From: Jaapia argillacea MUCL 33604
Lineage: Eukaryota; Basidiomycota; Agaricomycetes; Jaapiales; Jaapiaceae
Direction of reading: 5' to 3'
Assembly: GCA_000697665.1 (NCBI GenBank)
Contig: KL197735.1
Location: 417,940 to 481,939, forward strand
Length of the DNA: 64,000 nucleotides
Shown here: one piece after another, positions 26,565 to 63,952 of the stretch
Numbering within the stretch: the first letter of the stretch is position 1
How the letters are laid out: the number at the start of each line of letters is the position of its first letter
Program-made: the position numbers and the translations under genes
Notes under the pieces: model-generated
Databases searched by the model: none
Seen by the model: the letters and a program-made list of their open reading frames with translations, nothing else
What the model was told of the DNA's origin: nothing

Positions 26565-28107
26565 TTATTCCTCAACCTCATCCCCACCCGAGTTGCTGGA
26601 ACCACCTCCACTCCCTTCAGCCTCCCCGTCGTGCGAACCATTTTGCAGACCCCTCAGCCGTTCCTCCTCAGCCTCTGCGTCCTCCTCTTCCTTCTCCCTT
26701 CGATACTGCTCCAAATCCCAATCTTCCTCTTCATCTTCATCAGAGTCGTCGAACCATTCGGGGTTGTATTGGAACTATCCCAGGCAAGAATGATGACGGT
26801 GAATAGAAAGAGACGAGGAAAGCTTAGTGGACGCACCAAATCTCTGCCGCTCATACCGACGTTCTTCCCGGCCGAGGCAGCAGCGTCTTTGGCTTTCCTC
26901 ATAGCCTCTTCTTCGGCAGTCTTCTTGTCCATCCTCGTTCGCTTCCATTTGGCGAATGACTCGGGTGTGACTGGCGTCAAGTTCGATCCCAGTTTGTGGC
27001 GCTATTGGCACATAAGATCAAAGTCAAGAAATCCTTTATTATAGTCGGATAGGGACGTACCTCGACTTCCAAGAACTCCTCCAATGTAATCTGACTAGCC
27101 TTCGCCGCGTCCTCCTCCCTCTTCTTCTGCGACTTGAGGACGAAACCAGGTGGTAGGGCGTGTCGATATTGACAATTCTCACCGCCGTTAGGACATTCCC
27201 AGAACCAACCAAACCTAACGCGCGAGGAAAGAAGGGAAAACATTTGGTAAGGATGAAGGGAGATGGGTGGGGCATGTTACCATATGTGATACGCACTTTC
27301 CGAGCTCGATGGCTTCGATGAAGAATTTGCAGACGATCTGGAGAGCGGGGCGGCGTTCAGATTGGGCACGTATGAGAAGGGGGAGGAAGGATGAGGGGCC
27401 TTACATCTGTGGTCGTCCGAGGGTTTCCCTGCTTGGATAGAACGACAGTACGAAGCTTCTCCTCGTCCCATTTATCCATAGTATCTGCGGATCATCATCA
27501 ATTCTCCGACAAACCAACCTCATCACGAAAACCCAAAGGAAACTCACCATTCACTTTATCCTCCCTCCCATCCGAATAAATGTTCCTCTTCTCCACCTTC
27601 CTCTCCACATCCATATTATGACTAAACTTACACTTGTTCCCCTTCTCACAATTCCCCGCCTTGAAGAATACACACAACACCGTCTTAGGGTCGACACCAA
27701 AAGGTAACTTTTGGGTTTGTACGGGCTTGAAGAGAGCCGCTTCTTCCTTTTTGCGTTTCTCCTCTTCGAACTTCTCCTTCTCACGGAGGGCTTTCTCTTT
27801 CTCTTTTTCGATTTGGGCTTTGGATTTTCCAGCTATGGCTTGTTGGGCTTGGATTGTGGCCACTTGTTTCTGGACTTTGGCAGATTTGTTTTTCTGTGGA
27901 TTTGTCGTCCGGGTGGGAAGTCATATATGAGATTCCTACTATGATGGATAACGGGAGATTCGACGAACATTCTTCATGCCAAAGGTCTATGTTACTTCGT
28001 GGGTCAGCGTCATCAGGTCGATATCAGTGACGAGCGTAAATCTAATTGACCTTATCCTCCTTCGTCTTGGAAGAACTAGCCTTTGGTTGTTGTTTCTTGG
28101 GAGGCAT
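26565..28107 (-). CDS. TMA46: TMA46-like CCCH protein (DRG family-regulatory protein)
   Basis: Eight exons (28107-28051, 27986-27969, 27893-27548, 27484-27405, 27337-27297, 27214-27061, 27001-26837, 26774-26565) join in phase to 356 residues. The start [10 protein letters not shown] and the TFGMKN segment are family hallmarks. Finger 1 has C99, C107, C113 and H117. Finger 2, spanning an intron, has C170, C188, C195 and H199 around the [10 protein letters not shown] motif. The rest is a charged helix-rich stretch and a very acidic tail. Tma46 (ZC3H15/DFRP1 in animals) binds the GTPase Rbg1/DRG1 and associates with ribosomes in the cytoplasm. The 18-bp second exon is unusual but required by phase. 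Confidence 0.93.
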
Positions 28108-28526: not shown

Positions 28527-31454
28527 ATGGCCGGTCCGATGCTGTGTAGCGCTGTGGCATCGCCTTGCCATAGCCTCCAAGCATCTCGATGTGTATACCT
28601 CAGAGACTTACTTCTGGCTCGCCCTCATTGTTATGTCGACTCAAATCGACTCTGCGCCTTGTGGTACTGGAATAGGGTATCTATCTCTCATGTGCCCGAG
28701 TCCTGTCTACTCAGTGAGTTTCCAAGTGCTGCTGATGCCTTCCTCAAGGATTTGACCCCTGAACGAAAGTCGCTCTCTCGTGAGCTTCTCGTTAAATTAG
28801 TTTCTTTCTATCCAACACGTGAGGATAGCGATGTCTCCAGGTGAGTTTCATTCAGTAATCTTGTTCAAATGGCCGCCCCAACCTCCTGACCATGCCTCCC
28901 ACGTCAGGATCACTCATGGACTAGTCAGCTGGCTTTCTCGCCTGACAAGCATCAAGAACGATGTGCTTGACTTACTTTGTGCGAGTGAGGAGTTTCGGGT
29001 ATATTGCTGTGATGTAGGTATTTTCTCGCCAGCTGCTCTCTATCCTCACACCTCTGCCAGTCTCTCTCGGTGATTGGTTTCGGAGATGAACCTTCTCTTC
29101 AAAACATTTTGATAAGGGATCAAAATCCCATTGCGGAACTCCTTCAGACAGTGCTGATATCCGTCACACTCGTGGAGGATGTCCTGAATCTCGATGACGA
29201 TGATGTGGCGAAATTCTTAATCATCCTGCAGCGGGTACGGCCTTTGAAAATATGACTTCAGTGTGTATTTTACCCTCTCCCCGCGCTCCTCAGGCACTGG
29301 ATAACCTTTCGGGTTCACCCGGGTCCCCCTTCAACGAGCACTCCCGTCAAACCGCATATCGAACTATCATCCGCCTCTCGCAGAGGTGTCAGAAGCTTCC
29401 GCCATCACTTTTCGTTGAAGGCACCCTTTTGACGTCTGGTTTGATAACGGGGGGAGGTTTCGCTGATATATACCAAGGCCAATACCGTGATCAAACTGTC
29501 GCAATAAAACGCATGAGGATGTTCCATGGAGGTGCGGCTGAGATAATACGGGCACGAAAGGTAAGTCTCAGATACTACCCAGGTGCCGTCGTTATCACCT
29601 TTCTGCTGCTCACACTACGGTCGAAAGGTGCTCTTCCGGGAAGCTCTAGTCTGGCAACGCTTGAAGGATCCCTGTATTCTCCCCTTCATGGGCATTGATG
29701 CAGACCTCTTCACTGGCCAATTTTGTATGATATCCCCATGGATGTCCAACGGCTGTATCTTGACCTACCTTGAGAAGAATAGATCACTAAATCTCGACAT
29801 AGAACTCGTGGTTGGTTCTGAACATTCACACTTAGGCAGTTTACTTATCCTATCGCAGCTGATTGGCATTGGTCATGGCCTCGTGTATCTCCACTCGGAG
29901 AATGTGATCCATGGTGATCTGCGTGGTGTGAGTCTTTGCTCTCCCCTTATGGACAAGAAATTCACCAGTATCCCAGGCCAACATATTGATGGATAGCCAC
30001 GGCTGTCCTTTACTCGCCGATTTTGGCTTGGCGTACTATGCGGACGCCACCAGAACTTCAACGACCGACGGTTCTGTCAGATGGATGGCACCTGAACTTC
30101 TCCTACCCGACAAGTTTGATCTGAACTTCCAGAGAACATATGCGACTGATATTTACGCTTTCGGCTGCGTTTGCTTAGAGGTAAGATCGGCGCCTCGGTG
30201 GACACTATTAGCGGGACATCGCTTAACCTACTGTGCCTCAGGTCTACACAAGGAAGCACCCATTTCCAGAAATCAAGACTGACTCCGAGTTAGTCATAAA
30301 GATCTACAATTCGAGCCTGCGACCAACTAGACCATCAATCGAGGAATCTCAGGGAGTTGAGATTGCGGACGAGTGGTGGGCCTTCATCCTCTCGTGTCTC
30401 AAGGAGGATAGTAGCGAAAGACCCCGTGAAATTCAAATGAAACACTTTTTCAGCACGCTAAACTATCAGCAGCACTTTCCCGCGGTCACTTCCAGAGGAA
30501 TCTTAGAGACAGATCATTCTACTACAAACATCCAGGATCCCCCCCTCCTCCCTTCGACTATACAACCTTTTTCAATCGACAGTGCGGAGCGCTCGCTTAA
30601 CAGCGATAGGACGGAGGGCCAGCACATAATCCAATCGACTTCTGGTCCGGTGCGAAGCAAGCCTCATACTCCACCTGCAACCTCCTCCGATCATTTCCGA
30701 ATTCCCGCTCTTCCCGAAAATATGCTTCCGCCCCTTGGAAACGCAAGCTCTCAGGGGCATCGTATCACTCCCAATGGCGAAGGAATAACCCTTGGCGACG
30801 CATGGCTCAATGCCCGTAGATCGGAATCAAGAGCCTCTTCAGTCTACTACAGCGCCATGTCGAGTTATTCCCGGTATGTTGGTCGGTTATCAGCACACTT
30901 CTCATCCCATATGTCTATCTTCTCTGTTCTTTAGGTCTCGCAGGTCCAGAAGCACCTCGGTATACTTTAGTGCTATGTCGAGTTATTCAGGGTATCTACC
31001 GACCCCTCTAAAATTCATCGTTTCCCATTGGGCTGAAGCATTTCCCAGATCACGCAGGTCAATGAGCACATCGGTGTACCTTAGTGCAACATCTGGCCCG
31101 AGAATTGGAGAAGATACTAGCCTCCTTTCAGACGAAGACCCCGATCCATCCGCCCTCTCCCTACCGGAAGTTGGAACTGTAGCTATGAGGCGTGCCTCTC
31201 TTGCTAGACGCAAATATCCAGGTAAATATGTATGTAGCCTATGTGATTCCACATTTACTCGGAAAGCCGGTTTGGAACGTAAGTCACATGCTCCGCTTCA
31301 TATTGGTTTGAAGACTCAACTTGATCTCCATCTCCTTCCAGAACATTTAATGGCGCACGAAGGGATAAAACCCTACCGGTGTGAACTCTGCAATAAAACA
31401 TTTAGCCAGCGGAGTGATTGCATTAGGCACACGAGGAACTGCCACAACCAATAA
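28527..31454 (+). CDS. TKL-like protein kinase fused to two C2H2 zinc fingers
   Basis: Eleven exons stay in phase to 781 residues: 28527-28840, 28908-29013, 29061-29234, 29294-29560, 29628-29807, 29859-29927, 29977-30180, 30242-30873, 30935-30991, 31049-31278 and 31342-31454. Residues 1-230 form a helical lead. The kinase domain has a Gly loop GGGFAD near 253, K270 in VAIK, HGDLRGAN (D367, N372), DFG at 385-387 and APE at 408-410. HGD in place of HRD is usual in Agaricomycete TKL-like kinases. After a Ser/Pro linker come three similar Ser/Tyr units (about 635-690) and two C2H2 fingers (C730, C733, H746, H750 and C758, C761, H774, H779) joined by an EGIKPY linker, then the stop. The kinase C-lobe and the first Ser/Tyr unit share one exon, which argues against two separate genes. 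A start upstream of 28527 is possible. Confidence 0.82.
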
Positions 31455-32939: not shown

Positions 32940-33960
32940 TCTCAGTCTTCCCCTTCAAAGCCTTCTCTGACATCTTCCTCCTATTCTCAGCAGCAATATT
33001 CGCCTCACTCAACGGTTTCCTCCACTTCGTCTCCGGTGCACTCCAAACCCAGTATCCCTCTGCAGCTCTCCAAAATCCTGCTCCCACATCTTCTCCAAAG
33101 ATGCGCCGCGATCAAACTATTTGCACTTGTACCACATTTCATAGCCCAAGGAACGTATTCACAGAAACGCCTTTGACGTTTTGGCCAGTCGAGACGCAGA
33201 TGACTGAATGCAGCTGAGATGGCTGCTACTGGGAGACAGATGTTTGCGAATTCGAAGAATTTGACTGCTAGTTCGGATGAGACGTCGACGGGGAGGTTGA
33301 CGATGCAGTTGTAAAAGTCGTGACATTCGCGGAAACGTTATATCACATAGGCAAGTTCCGAGTCGTCGATGTAGTGAACCTGCAGGACGATACTCACTCA
33401 GAATACGAGCGCGGAAGGGTGGGGATTGGACATACTGGTGCTCGGTATCAGGTGTAACACCACATCCCTCCAACCAAGTCACGTACGCTCTTCCGAAAGT
33501 TCCCTCTGGGAGTTGAGCCAACGCGTTCATGTCAACTGTATCAGAGTTGATGCGTGGTCGATCTTTCAATATCTGTCTTCCCTGTGCACTGTTCAACATA
33601 TGATCGCGTAGCCGAGGTAACGCGATTCCGGCAGTCGTTTCTCCAAGGGCAGCAATCATGTCTGTTGGCGGAGGTAAGTTTGGTTTGGGGCAGGTGGAGA
33701 GGTGCGGAGGGTTTACTTACCGCCTCGACGAGGGTCGGAAAGAGACATGGCAGCAGAGCCAACAGTAAGGAAGGCATTTTCGAACCAGTTGAGAGGAATG
33801 GGACCGGGATGCGCTGGCGCTTGTGAACTTGAACTGAAGCTCCGACGTGGATTTTTGGAGGTGTGCTATTGAACTACGCACTACCATTCGCACATAGGCT
33901 TGTCTCGAGGCTCTAGCGCATGAGGAAACCAGCGACAACCTCCTCGACCAGCGGGACTTC
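32940..33960 (-). pseudogene. COQ4: COQ4 pseudogene, inverted copy A
   Basis: Mirror copy of the intact COQ4 at 53861-54870, with all three exons recognisable. The start codon is changed (TTG near 33925), exon 1 is frameshifted after the SSIAHLQ segment, and exon 3 has an in-frame TAA right after LAYV. The second histidine of the metal motif HDxxH is replaced by Asn. The middle exon, MIAALGETTAG to LPEGTFGRAYVTWLE, is still open, so decay is moderate. It is divergent from the broken 291-aa gene copy at 34370, as in the intact locus. Confidence 0.88.
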
Positions 33961-58331: not shown

Positions 58332-60333
58332 TGTAACACTTCCGTTGCTTTGGAAGAGTTTCCGTGGAACGTAGGAGATACCAGCTCGACACAGATGTAA
58401 TGTTATTTACTGAGAAGGTTGATGAGTTGAGCCAGAAAAAAAAAGTGAAAAAAAAGTGAAAAAACTTGTTGGAAACATGCTCCGGCCGCGGATGACAAAC
58501 GAAACTCGGCATTGGAGCATCTCCACACTGAGCCACCGACTAGTACTGACTTCTCGCCTTTGTTCACTGCCCCCCCGCCCCTCGACATCTCTGTCGCTTG
58601 AAAAACTCTGGCTATGCTGTTTGTGCCTCGAAGCTCTTCCATATGGCAGAGCAAAATTTGGATCCCACAACAGCAATCCGGGCTTTCTGTCGGAGTAGGA
58701 CTCCTTCCGACACCACTGCCTTTCAGCAACGAGAATTGCAGAGTAGAAAAAAATTGTGCATCTTACAATACTGTTCTCCCGAGGTTTCTCGAAAAACCTT
58801 TTCAAGTGCTCTGGAATCCGCTGCTGCCGTCCTCCAGTCGTCGACTCATTTGTGTACCATTTTACACTGACGTTCGTTTTTTTTTCAAGGCTTCGCACCA
58901 TAATTACTATGACTCAAGTCTTACCGTTCTGATGTGAGGGGATGAGAGGAAAGAAGATTCGCTGTTGCATGAAGCCTGATGTGCGTCCTGACTATTTTTC
59001 CTTCGCTTTTTCTGGGCGTCTGCCCCGACGCGTCTATTCAGACTTGGTACCGTGACTGCCCTACTGCGGTGGTGCAAGTAATTTAGTGAGTCATCTAATT
59101 CCGGTGATACTGTGATTGCGGCTGTTTACAAAGCTGTACTCGACGCTCGTCCCCCCTTGCGGCCCTCAATGCAATCCTCTGCATTGTCCAATCCAACCTC
59201 GGTCGTTCCGTTTAGAAATCCTCAAAAACATCCATTCATAACCTCTCTTTTCCACTTTTCTCCGGGCCCCACAACCTCAACTCGTACATCACCGTTGCTG
59301 AAATGATTTCTAGAGCCTCCACTCCAGACTCCGTTGATGAATTCTTCCTCGACGCAGTAGCAACCGACGCTCCCACCACTTCCCGAACCAAATCCACCAT
59401 CTGTAGTACCCAGAACCACCGCAACGACGGACCTTCGGGGCATCGAACCCCGAAGCTACCTCCTTCGCGCGCCAATTCACGAAAGCCTAGGAGATGTTCA
59501 CCCTATCACATCACCAGTCACGACGTCGCGCGGGGAGACCATCTCAACCCACGAGATGAATCCAACGGCCCGTATACACCCGATCCTTCGACACCCTGCC
59601 CTGATATCACCCCCGACACCTCTACGCATTCCGCCAGCCCAATTTCACACTCACCACTGGTTCCGCAGTCTCCCTTACCAGGGGACGAGATCCTTTCGGT
59701 AGAAAGGACCGACCCTGCATCAGACCTTCCTGCGAGATCTCACTCACCATATCGAGAGCTGAAATTCTCACTCAGCCTCACCAGTGCGGCCGAAGCAAGG
59801 CGGAAATATCCCGCCAAGTTTTCTTGTACCTATTGCGGAAGAACGTTCACAAGGAGGGACAATCTGGAAGGTATCTACTCTGTTCTGTCGTCTTGCAACA
59901 GTTGCCATGGAATTGATAGTCTTTCTCACGTATCTAGTTCATCTCCGAGCTCATAAGGGAGTGTACCCGTGGACTTGCCCCATATGCGAAGACAAGAAGT
60001 TCTTGCAAAAGAGCGACTTGACTAGACATTTGAAGAAAGTCCACAGCTATCCATCTGGTACTCAGAACACAACCTCGTCGGCCCAATGAGTCCCTATAGA
60101 ATACTTGGACTTTCTCCGACTCGGATAGTACTGCTCCAATGCATGACCTCGATCGTGCCCTTTCTTGCACCAGTATGTAGCAAATGTAGGCCGTCTTAGC
60201 TTTGGTTATAGCTGTAGTCTCCCCAGACGATCCCCTAGGTACCCTCGAATTCGCAGCTCAATCTCACAACGATCAAGTTCCGAGCAGTTTTGATGTCCGG
60301 GTCTTAGTGAGACATATCACTTGGTAATCTCGA
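58332..60333. repeat. Direct duplication block, left copy
   Basis: About 2.0 kb repeated at 61986-63952 in the same orientation, offset about 3.65 kb. It starts 36 bp after the GRDP stop and includes a roughly 970-bp upstream region with no recognised gene (58332-59302), the 239-aa zinc-finger gene and its 3' flank. Confidence 0.85.
59303..60089 (+). CDS. 239-aa two-finger C2H2 protein, left copy
   Basis: Exons 59303-59870 and 59938-60089 give 239 residues. Residues 1-165 are disordered and Ser/Pro/Thr-rich, starting MISRASTPDSVDEFF. Two fingers follow. CTYCGRTFTRRDNLEVHLRAH spans the intron, with C-x2-C-x12-H-x3-H. CPICEDKKFLQKSDLTRHLKKVH is the second, with one extra residue (x13). The end is Thr/Ser-rich. 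It is probably a nuclear DNA-binding regulator by finger type; no target is known. The intron inside the first finger, phase 1 before the histidines, is in the same place as in the finger of the kinase fusion at 31278, which suggests common descent of these finger modules. Confidence 0.82.
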
Positions 60334-61985: not shown

Positions 61986-63952
61986 TGTGTAACACTTCCG
62001 TTGTTTTTGTAAGAGTTTTTGTGGAATAGGACATACCAGCTCGACACAGAGGTAATTGAGAAGGTTGATGAGTTGAGCCAGAAAAAAAAAGTGAAAAAAC
62101 TTGTTGGAAACATGCTCTGACCGCGGATAACAAATAGAACTCGGCATTGGAGCATCTCCACAACTTCTCGCCTTTGGCCCTTTGTTCACTGCTCCCCCGC
62201 CCCTCGACATCTCTGTCGCTTGAAGGACTCTGGCTATGCTGTTCGTGCCTCTGAGCTCCCCCGTATGGCGGGGCAAAATTTGTATCCCACAACAGCAATC
62301 GGGGCTTTCTGTCGGAGCAGGACTCCTTCCGACACTGCCGCATTTCAGCCTTGCAGAGCAGAAAAAATTCATTTACAATGCCATCGTGCAATACTAGTCT
62401 CGCGAAGTCTCTCGAAAAATCCATACAATTGCTCTGGAATCTGCTTCTGCTGTCCTCCAGTCGTCAGGCCCTGCGTGTGCCGTTTACACTGACTTTTTTT
62501 TTTAGGCTTCGCGCCATAATTACTATGACTCAAGTCTTACCCTTCTGATGCGTGGGGATGAGAGGAAAGAAGAATTACTATTTTACAAAGCCTGTTGTGC
62601 GTCCTAGCCATTTTTCTCTTCGCTTTTGCTGGGCGTCTGCCCCGACGCGTGTTCCTACTCAGTATGTTCAGAACTCGGTACCGTGACTGACATGCTGCGA
62701 TGGCCCAAATAATCTAGCGATTCATCATTCCCAATTGTAGCGATTGCGGTGTTACCAATCAAACAAGGCTGTACATCCCATCCATGCAGTCGTTAATGCA
62801 ATCCTCTGACTTGTCAAACCCGGACCCAGTGTTGAAGCTCAGTCGTTCCATCTCGAAATCTTCCCACAAACATACCTCTATAATCTCTCTTTTCCATTTT
62901 TCTCCTGGCCCCACAACTTCAGGCGGTACACCGAGATGTTTTCCAGAGCCTCCACTCCAGACTCCGTTGATGAATTCTTCCTCGACGCAGTCGCAACCGA
63001 CGCTCCCACCACTTCTAGAACCAAATCCACCATCTGTAGTACCCAGCACCATCGAAACGACGGACCCTCGGGACATCGAGCCCAAAAGCTACCTTCTTCC
63101 TGCGCCAATTCACGAAAGGCTGGGAGATGTTCACCGCATCACATCACCGGTCACGACGCCGCGCGGGGAGACCATCTCAACCCACGAGATGAATCCAACG
63201 GCCCGTATACACCCGATCCTTCGACACCCTGCCCTGATATCACCCCCGACTCCTCGACGCATTCCGCCAGCCCAGTCCCACACTCGCCACTGGTTCCGCA
63301 GTCTTCCTTACCAGGGGATGAGATCCTTTCGGTAGAAAGGACCGACCCTGCATCAGACCTTCCTGCGAGATCTCACTCACCATATCGAGAGCTGAAATGC
63401 TCACGCAGCCTCATCAGTGCGGCCGAAGCAAGGCGGAAAAACCCCGCCAATTTCTCTTGTACCTATTGCGGAAGGACGTTCACAAGGAGGGATAATCTGG
63501 AAGGTATCTATTCTGTTCTGTCGTCTTGCAACAGTTGCCATGGAATTGATGGTCTCTTTCTTACGTTTCTAGTTCATCTCCGAGCTCATAAGGGGGTGTA
63601 CCCGTGGACTTGCAACATATGTGAAGACAAGAAGTTCTTGCAAAAGAGCGACTTGACTAGACATTTGAAGAAAGTTCACAGCTTTCCATGTGGTACTCAG
63701 AACCCAACCTCGTCGACCCAATGAGTCCCTATAATTCCTTAATAATACTCAGGCCTCAATCGTGGCCTTTCTTCTACTATTATGTAGCAAATGTAAACCG
63801 TCTTAGCTTTTGGTTATAGCTGTGATCTCCCCAGATGATCTTTTAGATACCTTCAAATTCGCTGCTTTGTATCCCAATCTCACAACAATGAAATTCCGAA
63901 CAGTTTCGATGTCGGAGTCTTGGCGAGACATGTCACTTCAGCTATTCTCGAA
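61986..63952. repeat. Direct duplication block, right copy
   Basis: Same block as 58332-60333. Small indels occur in the upstream part and few in the gene. Its left edge is within 45 bp of the truncated oxidase exon. The upstream part (61986-62935) holds no recognised gene. Confidence 0.85.
62936..63724 (+). CDS. 239-aa two-finger C2H2 protein, right copy
   Basis: Exons 62936-63503 and 63573-63724 (568 and 152 nt) have exactly the lengths of the left copy and give 239 residues starting MFSRASTPDSVDEFF. Both fingers are complete; the second reads CNICEDKKFLQKSDLTRHLKKVH. Substitutions are scattered (for example KNPANFSC where the left copy has KYPAKFSC) with no frame changes, so both copies look functional. 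The following 275 bp to the window end are shared 3' flank and a short unrelated stretch. Confidence 0.82.
   Translation: MFSRASTPDSVDEFFLDAVATDAPTTSRTKSTICSTQHHRNDGPSGHRAQKLPSSCANSRKAGRCSPHHITGHDAARGDHLNPRDESNGPYTPDPSTPCPDITPDSSTHSASPVPHSPLVPQSSLPGDEILSVERTDPASDLPARSHSPYRELKCSRSLISAAEARRKNPANFSCTYCGRTFTRRDNLEGIYSVLSSCNSCHGIDGLFLTFLVHLRAHKGVYPWTCNICEDKKFLQKSDLTRHLKKVHSFPCGTQNPTSSTQ

Follow-up and report, generated by a model that had tools for sequence, protein, structure and literature searches.

A putative single gene for a TKL-like kinase with C-terminal C2H2 zinc fingers in Jaapia argillacea, and related kinase loci in the same genome

Introduction

Kinases of eukaryotes normally reach genes via separate transcription factors. 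The Arabidopsis protein WRKY19, which may serve as a point of comparison here, is also named MEKK4. According to the sections of the source used, it contains a WRKY and a MAPKKK domain and is a chimera of narrow distribution (PMC4350883). Like the product of the gene described below, it is a protein kinase that also contains a DNA-binding domain with zinc coordination; its domains are WRKY, NB-ARC, and a C-terminal MAPKKK, whereas in the present gene the TKL-like kinase comes first and the C2H2 fingers last. Fungal_trans was found in a fungal kinase and is named as one of the domains that occur a single time across 30 kinomes (PMC2838846). Here, too, a predicted protein contains a kinase together with a transcription-factor domain of fungi; it differs from the present gene in that the domain is another one, the case is single, and no family is described in that section. 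As far as these excerpts go, AtWRKY19 and the Fungal_trans kinase can be regarded as precedents for the fusion of a kinase with a DNA-binding domain.

With respect to the kinase itself, Laccaria has been described to contain many TKLs (PMC2838846), and TK-related kinases (FslK) are expanded in Agaricomycetes (PMC3937382). In the parts of both papers drawn on here, these groups resemble the present gene in having a TKL- or TK-like kinase domain and a large lineage-specific expansion; the main texts of the two papers do not contain the word "zinc" (0 occurrences), and further domains may be listed in figures or supplements. A combination of kinase and C2H2 fingers was not among the cases found in the consulted part of a review on bifunctional kinases (PMC9138534). 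No fungal kinase-C2H2 family was present among the matches listed by title or abstract start in the open-licence literature, and the view taken in the original prediction, that no standard family has a kinase followed by C2H2 fingers, agrees with the matches listed there.

The gene is located in a stretch of 64,000 nucleotides of J. argillacea MUCL 33604 (C27:417940-481939), which was analysed as a whole and is called the window here. The genome searched comprises 43.7 Mb in 95 contigs.

Gene model and domains of the window gene

The window gene consists of 11 exons with a total of 2346 nt, i.e., 781 codons (781 amino acids) plus a stop codon (Table 1). Exon borders were placed by hand from the DNA and then tested for an open spliced frame. 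The spliced frame was open throughout, with 0 internal stops, and all introns (47-67 nt) have GT-AG ends, which agrees with the earlier claim that the eleven exons stay in phase from the kinase to the fingers. The junctions 30873/30935, 30991/31049, and 31278/31342, which had been proposed for examination with transcript reads, fit the hand-set borders at the level of the sequence. The model is least certain at its start codon and at the 3' ends of exons 2 and 5: for exon 2 an alternative end is open, and for exon 5 the donor is GTGGTT, the border in the model of a related copy on contig C12 lying one codon further on.

Table 1 Features of the window gene (positions are those of the window; C12 is the contig with the related kinase copy)
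Feature	Position	Strand	Remarks
Whole gene	28527..31454	+	N-terminal region, TKL-like kinase, linker with three repeats, two C2H2 fingers; Pfam, introns, spliced frame
N-terminal region, exons 1-3 and first part of exon 4	28527..29440	+	start codon uncertain
Protein kinase domain, residues 249-501	29444..30430	+	K270, E292, D367, D385, and APE 408-410 intact; Pfam
Ser/Thr/Pro-rich linker, exon 8	30431..30811	+	open frame; also present in the C12 copy, which has an in-frame gap of 189 nt
Repeat 1, end of exon 8	30812..30871	+	C12 DNA homology stops within, at 30858
Intron 8	30874..30934	+	if retained, its last three bases form a stop codon
Repeat 2, exon 9	30935..30991	+	sequence comparison and shuffles
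Repeat 3, start of exon 10	31050..31097	+	sequence comparison and shuffles
Basic pre-finger block (..RRASLARRKYPGKYV)	31161..31232	+	resembles the block of stand-alone C2H2 genes
C2H2 finger 1 (CSLC..H...H)	31233..31358	+	interrupted by intron 31279-31341 at 46 nt from the start of the first Cys codon
C2H2 finger 2 (CELC..H....H)	31380..31445	+	Pfam, ligands

A Pfam search at E values of up to 1 yielded nothing for the N-terminal region. It is in this region, at 28599, that the DNA homology with the C12 copy begins. The kinases of a cluster on contig C27 align to the window protein from residue 149 or 160 onward, and among 116 genome matches only those of the window gene itself and of the C12 copy start before residue 149.

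Pfam analysis of the spliced protein yielded Pkinase at 8.6e-32 (residues 251-500) and PK_Tyr_Ser-Thr at 1.6e-31. The TKL-like kinase with intact K, HGD...N, DFG, and APE residues that had been foreseen was indeed found: K270, E292, HGDLRGAN (with D367 and the N), DFG (385), and APE (408) are all present. The catalytic loop has HGD in place of HRD, and we take it to resemble that of the TKL or TK-related kinases of Agaricomycetes. Among the best 60 of 731 solved chains, the best-scoring one was TNNI3K (9.1e-22), with B-Raf, RIPK1, and some tyrosine kinases below it; EGFR, BMX, and TAO3 are also present, and the assignment to the TKL group is tentative. Judged by its sequence, the kinase looks active.

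At the C-terminus, the pattern C-x2-C-x12-H-x3/4-H occurs twice, all eight zinc ligands are present, and the two fingers are connected by the TGEKP-like linker HEGIKPY. Pfam zf-C2H2 was found in two stretches at 1.1e-6 and 29.2 bits (cut-off 25.2), in line with the assertion that both fingers are complete; finger 2 by itself obtained 21.5 bits for zf-C2H2, which is under this cut-off, and passed that of zf-met. Binding of the protein to DNA, and with it the proposed role as a one-step regulator, would be suggested by the intact zinc ligands and the TGEKP-like linker. Without further help, a pair of C2H2 fingers binds only weakly to DNA. Following the general recognition code, finger 2 would presumably favour a GCA-like triplet.

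Linker and repeats

Exon 8 is open for 149 codons from the end of the kinase through repeat 1; 16 out of 2000 dinucleotide shuffles were likewise open. Repeat 1 closes this exon, so that the first of the three repeats sits, as stated before, in the exon that ends the kinase. At the DNA level, copies 1 and 2 are 75 % identical over 51 nt and copies 2 and 3 are 80 % identical over 41 nt. The exon scores of both pairs go far beyond those of shuffled sequences (equalled by 0 of 1000), while no likeness beyond chance was seen between the two introns that separate the repeats, for which 890 of 1000 shuffles scored as well. The three repeats together contain 22 Ser, 6 Tyr, and 9 Arg in 56 residues and would be likely sites of phosphorylation in cis. 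It may be speculated that retention of intron 8 leads to a kinase-only form of the protein. In-frame Met codons are present in exons 8 and 9, and a finger-only product may be made via an internal start.

Kinase loci with C2H2-type tails on the same contig

The 3' flanks of 20 kinase loci were read, i.e., those of the window gene, the C12 copy, 16 loci, L048, and L064. These are mostly the best matches in the genome and not a random sample, and their tails were judged by eye from open frames of at least 35 amino acids. C2H2-type fingers or remnants were seen in 8 of the 20 (the window gene, L043, L044, L046, L047, L048, L054, and L064) and a Zn2Cys6 motif in one (C12), while the remaining 11 flanks had neither finger type in such frames. 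The seven C2H2-tailed loci other than the window gene form a cluster on the window's own contig, C27, and their tails are whole or decayed. With seven further kinase copies carrying finger tails, the window gene is therefore to be seen as belonging to a small gene family and not as a reading error. Neither this recurrence nor the different tail of the C12 copy was part of the original prediction.

In six loci of this cluster (L043, L044, L046, L047, L048, and L064), the C-lobe of the kinase and finger 1, or a remnant of it, are located in one uninterrupted exon that is open for 162-385 codons. It is because of this shared exon that the window gene is read here as one gene, as had been proposed originally. 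The linkers of the six loci have 0 stops in the coding frame and 3-19 in each other forward frame. The number of dinucleotide shuffles that stayed open, out of 2000, was 0 for L043, 4 for L044, 22 for L046, 1 for L047, 3 for L048, and 264 for L064, and the open linkers are not independent cases because the loci are related.

A kinase without stop or frameshift was obtained in spliced alignments with window residues 141-512 for L043, L044, L046, L047, L048, L054, and the C12 copy; such alignments may place introns freely, and a spurious intron beyond the kinase end was seen in two of them (L046 and L047). L064 has two canonical fingers, but its kinase contains one stop and one frameshift. L054 comprises a whole kinase, then part of the C-lobe for a second time, and finally the finger tail. 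The set of eight ligands of the two fingers is complete in the window gene, L043, and L064; L046 also has eight, with an altered spacing in finger 1. In L044, L048, and L054, finger 1 is lost or short of at least one ligand, and L047 has a broken finger 2. The SD..R positions of the recognition helix of finger 2 are kept in 6 of the 8 tails. Alignment of the fingers at low intron cost gave spurious many-intron results for L046, L047, and L054 and spurious small exons for L044 and L048; the border of finger 1 in L048 differs between this alignment and the reading by eye, the latter of which was used. The window gene is among the few copies in which the kinase and both fingers are whole. As the fingers have decayed in several copies, DNA binding is not preserved across the kinase-C2H2 family.

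Ka/Ks values of 0.25-0.34 were calculated for the kinase in the three cluster pairs tested (L043, L044, and L048). For the linker they were 0.30-1.04 over 15 pairs, several of which have saturated Ks. Purifying selection on the kinases tested is indicated by the sequences, and constraint on the linkers of the cluster loci is weak. Combined with the finger decay, the Ka/Ks values lead to the picture of a constrained kinase, a weakly constrained linker, and unevenly constrained fingers.

Kinase and C2H2 matches at most 3 kb apart on one strand were seen, by eye and among the matches listed, on C27 only. This check drew on part of a set of 163 matches, on 116 matches, and on 150 matches from 150 of 180 candidates scored, and it was not exhaustive because the last of these scans missed the tails of L044, L046, and L047.

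At C27:186.1-187.4 kb, a further kinase of the family (L038) is followed by Cys-rich open frames, none of which reached a Pfam cut-off. A PARP-like domain in this tail (C27:187k) was considered and rejected: three fragments were without a Pfam PARP match, and 0 of 11 PARP matches fell on C27. The tail may represent a further domain type.

A kinase copy with a Zn2Cys6 end

A second copy of the window kinase, with about 90 % DNA identity, is present on contig C12 (L012/L059, C12:391.6-394.4 kb). Window positions 28599-30546 match it with 89.6 % identity over 1948 nt and positions 30727-30858 with 87.1 % over 132 nt, the homology ending inside repeat 1. The kinase proteins are 87 % identical. A Ka/Ks of 0.60 was obtained for the two copies, with no stop in the 509 codons from 28740 on; the N-terminus of the C12 protein is uncertain because gaps early in exon 1 shift the frame.

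After repeat 1, the C12 frame continues into a piece of a transcription-factor gene, followed by GCFTCRIRRK, one intron, and the remainder of a Zn2Cys6 cluster, and Pfam finds Zn_clus in this tail above its cut-off (1.3e-5). A near copy of the transcription-factor gene without a kinase (L061) is located 23 kb away, at about C12:370.4-370.5 kb. It shares 83 % and 87 % protein identity (two matches) with the C12 fusion tail and 94.0 % DNA identity over 1376 nt. The C12 locus is visibly rearranged, and an internal piece of the transcription-factor gene is repeated at the junction. From the near copy and the open frame, it can therefore be concluded that a recent rearrangement gave a closely related kinase another DNA-binding end. 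The C12 product, known here solely as an open frame, may be a chance junction.

Stand-alone C2H2 genes and the origin of the tails

Many stand-alone two-finger C2H2 genes were found in the genome, namely in a cluster on C21, on C10 and C3, at C27:178k, and in the window near 59.9 and 63.5 kb. By eye, no kinase was seen in the open frames upstream of their fingers. They have the two-finger module, the RRK block, and the intron 46 nt into finger 1 in common with the window gene. This intron splits finger 1 at 46 nt after the start of the first Cys codon in 7 of 7 stand-alone genes found by scan and likewise in the window gene and L064; the offset is 49 in L043, which has an extra Cys in front, and 43 in L046, in which the finger is shorter. 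The tail of the window protein is 41 % identical to a stand-alone protein on C10 (C10:785k) over 114 aligned positions, comprising the fingers and the pre-finger block, 45 % identical over 71 to the product of the stand-alone gene near 59.9 kb in the window, and 31 % identical over 62 to the tail of L048.

In a finger tree of 13 sequences, from which L047 and L054 were left out, the fingers of the window kinase group with the two stand-alone genes of the window (split support 81). One clade of all kinase-linked fingers was weakly rejected (AU p 0.040, KH and SH 0.066). One clade of C2H2-tailed kinases was not rejected by the kinase trees, the AU p being 0.30 for a first tree made from rough rows, of which 19 of 27 were used and that of L044 was poor over an intron, and 0.48 for a tree of 19 rows from spliced models, without L053 and L001-L008. 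The fingers of the window gene would derive from the local, expanded family of stand-alone C2H2 genes with a common intron in finger 1. Judged from these sequences, DNA-binding domains became attached to kinases of the family on at least two and perhaps on three occasions.

A large run of two-finger C2H2 genes is located at C21:409-574 kb, and those that were modelled have an intron inside finger 1. The two stand-alone genes of the window (59216-60050 and 62810-63721, + strand) have nearly identical finger pairs and are probably recent duplicates.

Proposed function and alternative explanations

We regard it as rather probable that the window contains one gene for a TKL-like kinase with a C-terminal C2H2 pair, the product of which is a DNA- or nucleus-tethered member of a small kinase-zinc-finger family. 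By means of the fingers and the adjoining RRK block (RRKYPGK), the kinase would be directed to the nucleus or to DNA, and the targets of its phosphorylation might be the Ser/Tyr/Arg-rich repeats of the same protein (in cis) or proteins located at this DNA. One polypeptide would in this way both receive the signal and be targeted to DNA, and the protein would most likely act as a nuclear or DNA-tethered kinase.

The fusion could also be real with fingers that no longer bind DNA and that serve in protein contact, zinc-dependent folding, or localisation, or are a decaying relic. Decay in 4 of the 7 C27 cluster loci (L044, L047, L048, and L054), the altered spacing in L046, the presence of just two tandem fingers, and the linker Ka/Ks of 1.04 in one pair would all agree with such a loss, but the window gene, L043, and L064 keep eight ligands and the SD..R positions of finger 2 survive in most tails; we see this as a serious possibility that is nevertheless on the unlikely side. 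Two adjoining genes, of which the first, for the kinase, would end in exon 8 and the second, a short one for the C2H2 fingers, would start in the linker, with an accidental phase or rare read-through, would account for the point (30858) at which the C12 kinase copy parts from the window and would fit the numerous stand-alone genes of the finger family and the possible kinase-only isoform by intron 8 retention. This is improbable in view of the single open exon that at six other loci contains the end of the kinase together with finger 1 or what remains of it, the fact that all stretches between the window kinase and its fingers are either open exon or short GT-AG intron, and the repeats, which cross the supposed boundary.

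By analogy with plant R protein-WRKY chimeras, as presented in the part of the source used (PMC4350883), the tail might be a bait or readout module in a fast-evolving recognition system in which kinase copies sample transcription-factor tails. Close kinase copies do carry different tails, C2H2 in the window and Zn2Cys6 on C12, and the copies are clustered, duplicated, and partly decayed; Pfam, however, found no recognition domain in the N-terminal region, two tail types only were seen, and the junction on C12 may have arisen by accident in recent times, so that this explanation is considered improbable. An assembly artefact or chance chimera, as the visible rearrangement of the C12 locus might suggest, is barely conceivable for a gene that lies inside a 482-kb contig and has a kinase-finger order that recurs at other loci.

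Starting from the preferred reading of one gene with a kinase and fingers, a wider idea, which we put forward tentatively and think unlikely, is that the kinase C-terminus is a socket for DNA-binding domains. Separate joinings of C2H2 (C27 cluster and window) and Zn2Cys6 (C12) domains would then have produced DNA-tethered, self-phosphorylating kinases that replace a whole signalling cascade by one protein.

Independently of this wider idea, a duplicated family with kinase and DNA-binding module in one polypeptide would be a natural one-protein route from signal to gene. In the C12 copy, the DNA-binding end was swapped recently, as judged by a DNA divergence of about 10 %, and the origin of such fusions can therefore be tested directly within one genome.

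Neighbouring genes

The kinase gene is flanked by two genes on the - strand: a CCCH zinc-finger gene upstream (window 27498-27920) and a Coq4-like gene downstream (window 33159-33716; Pfam 2.2e-29).
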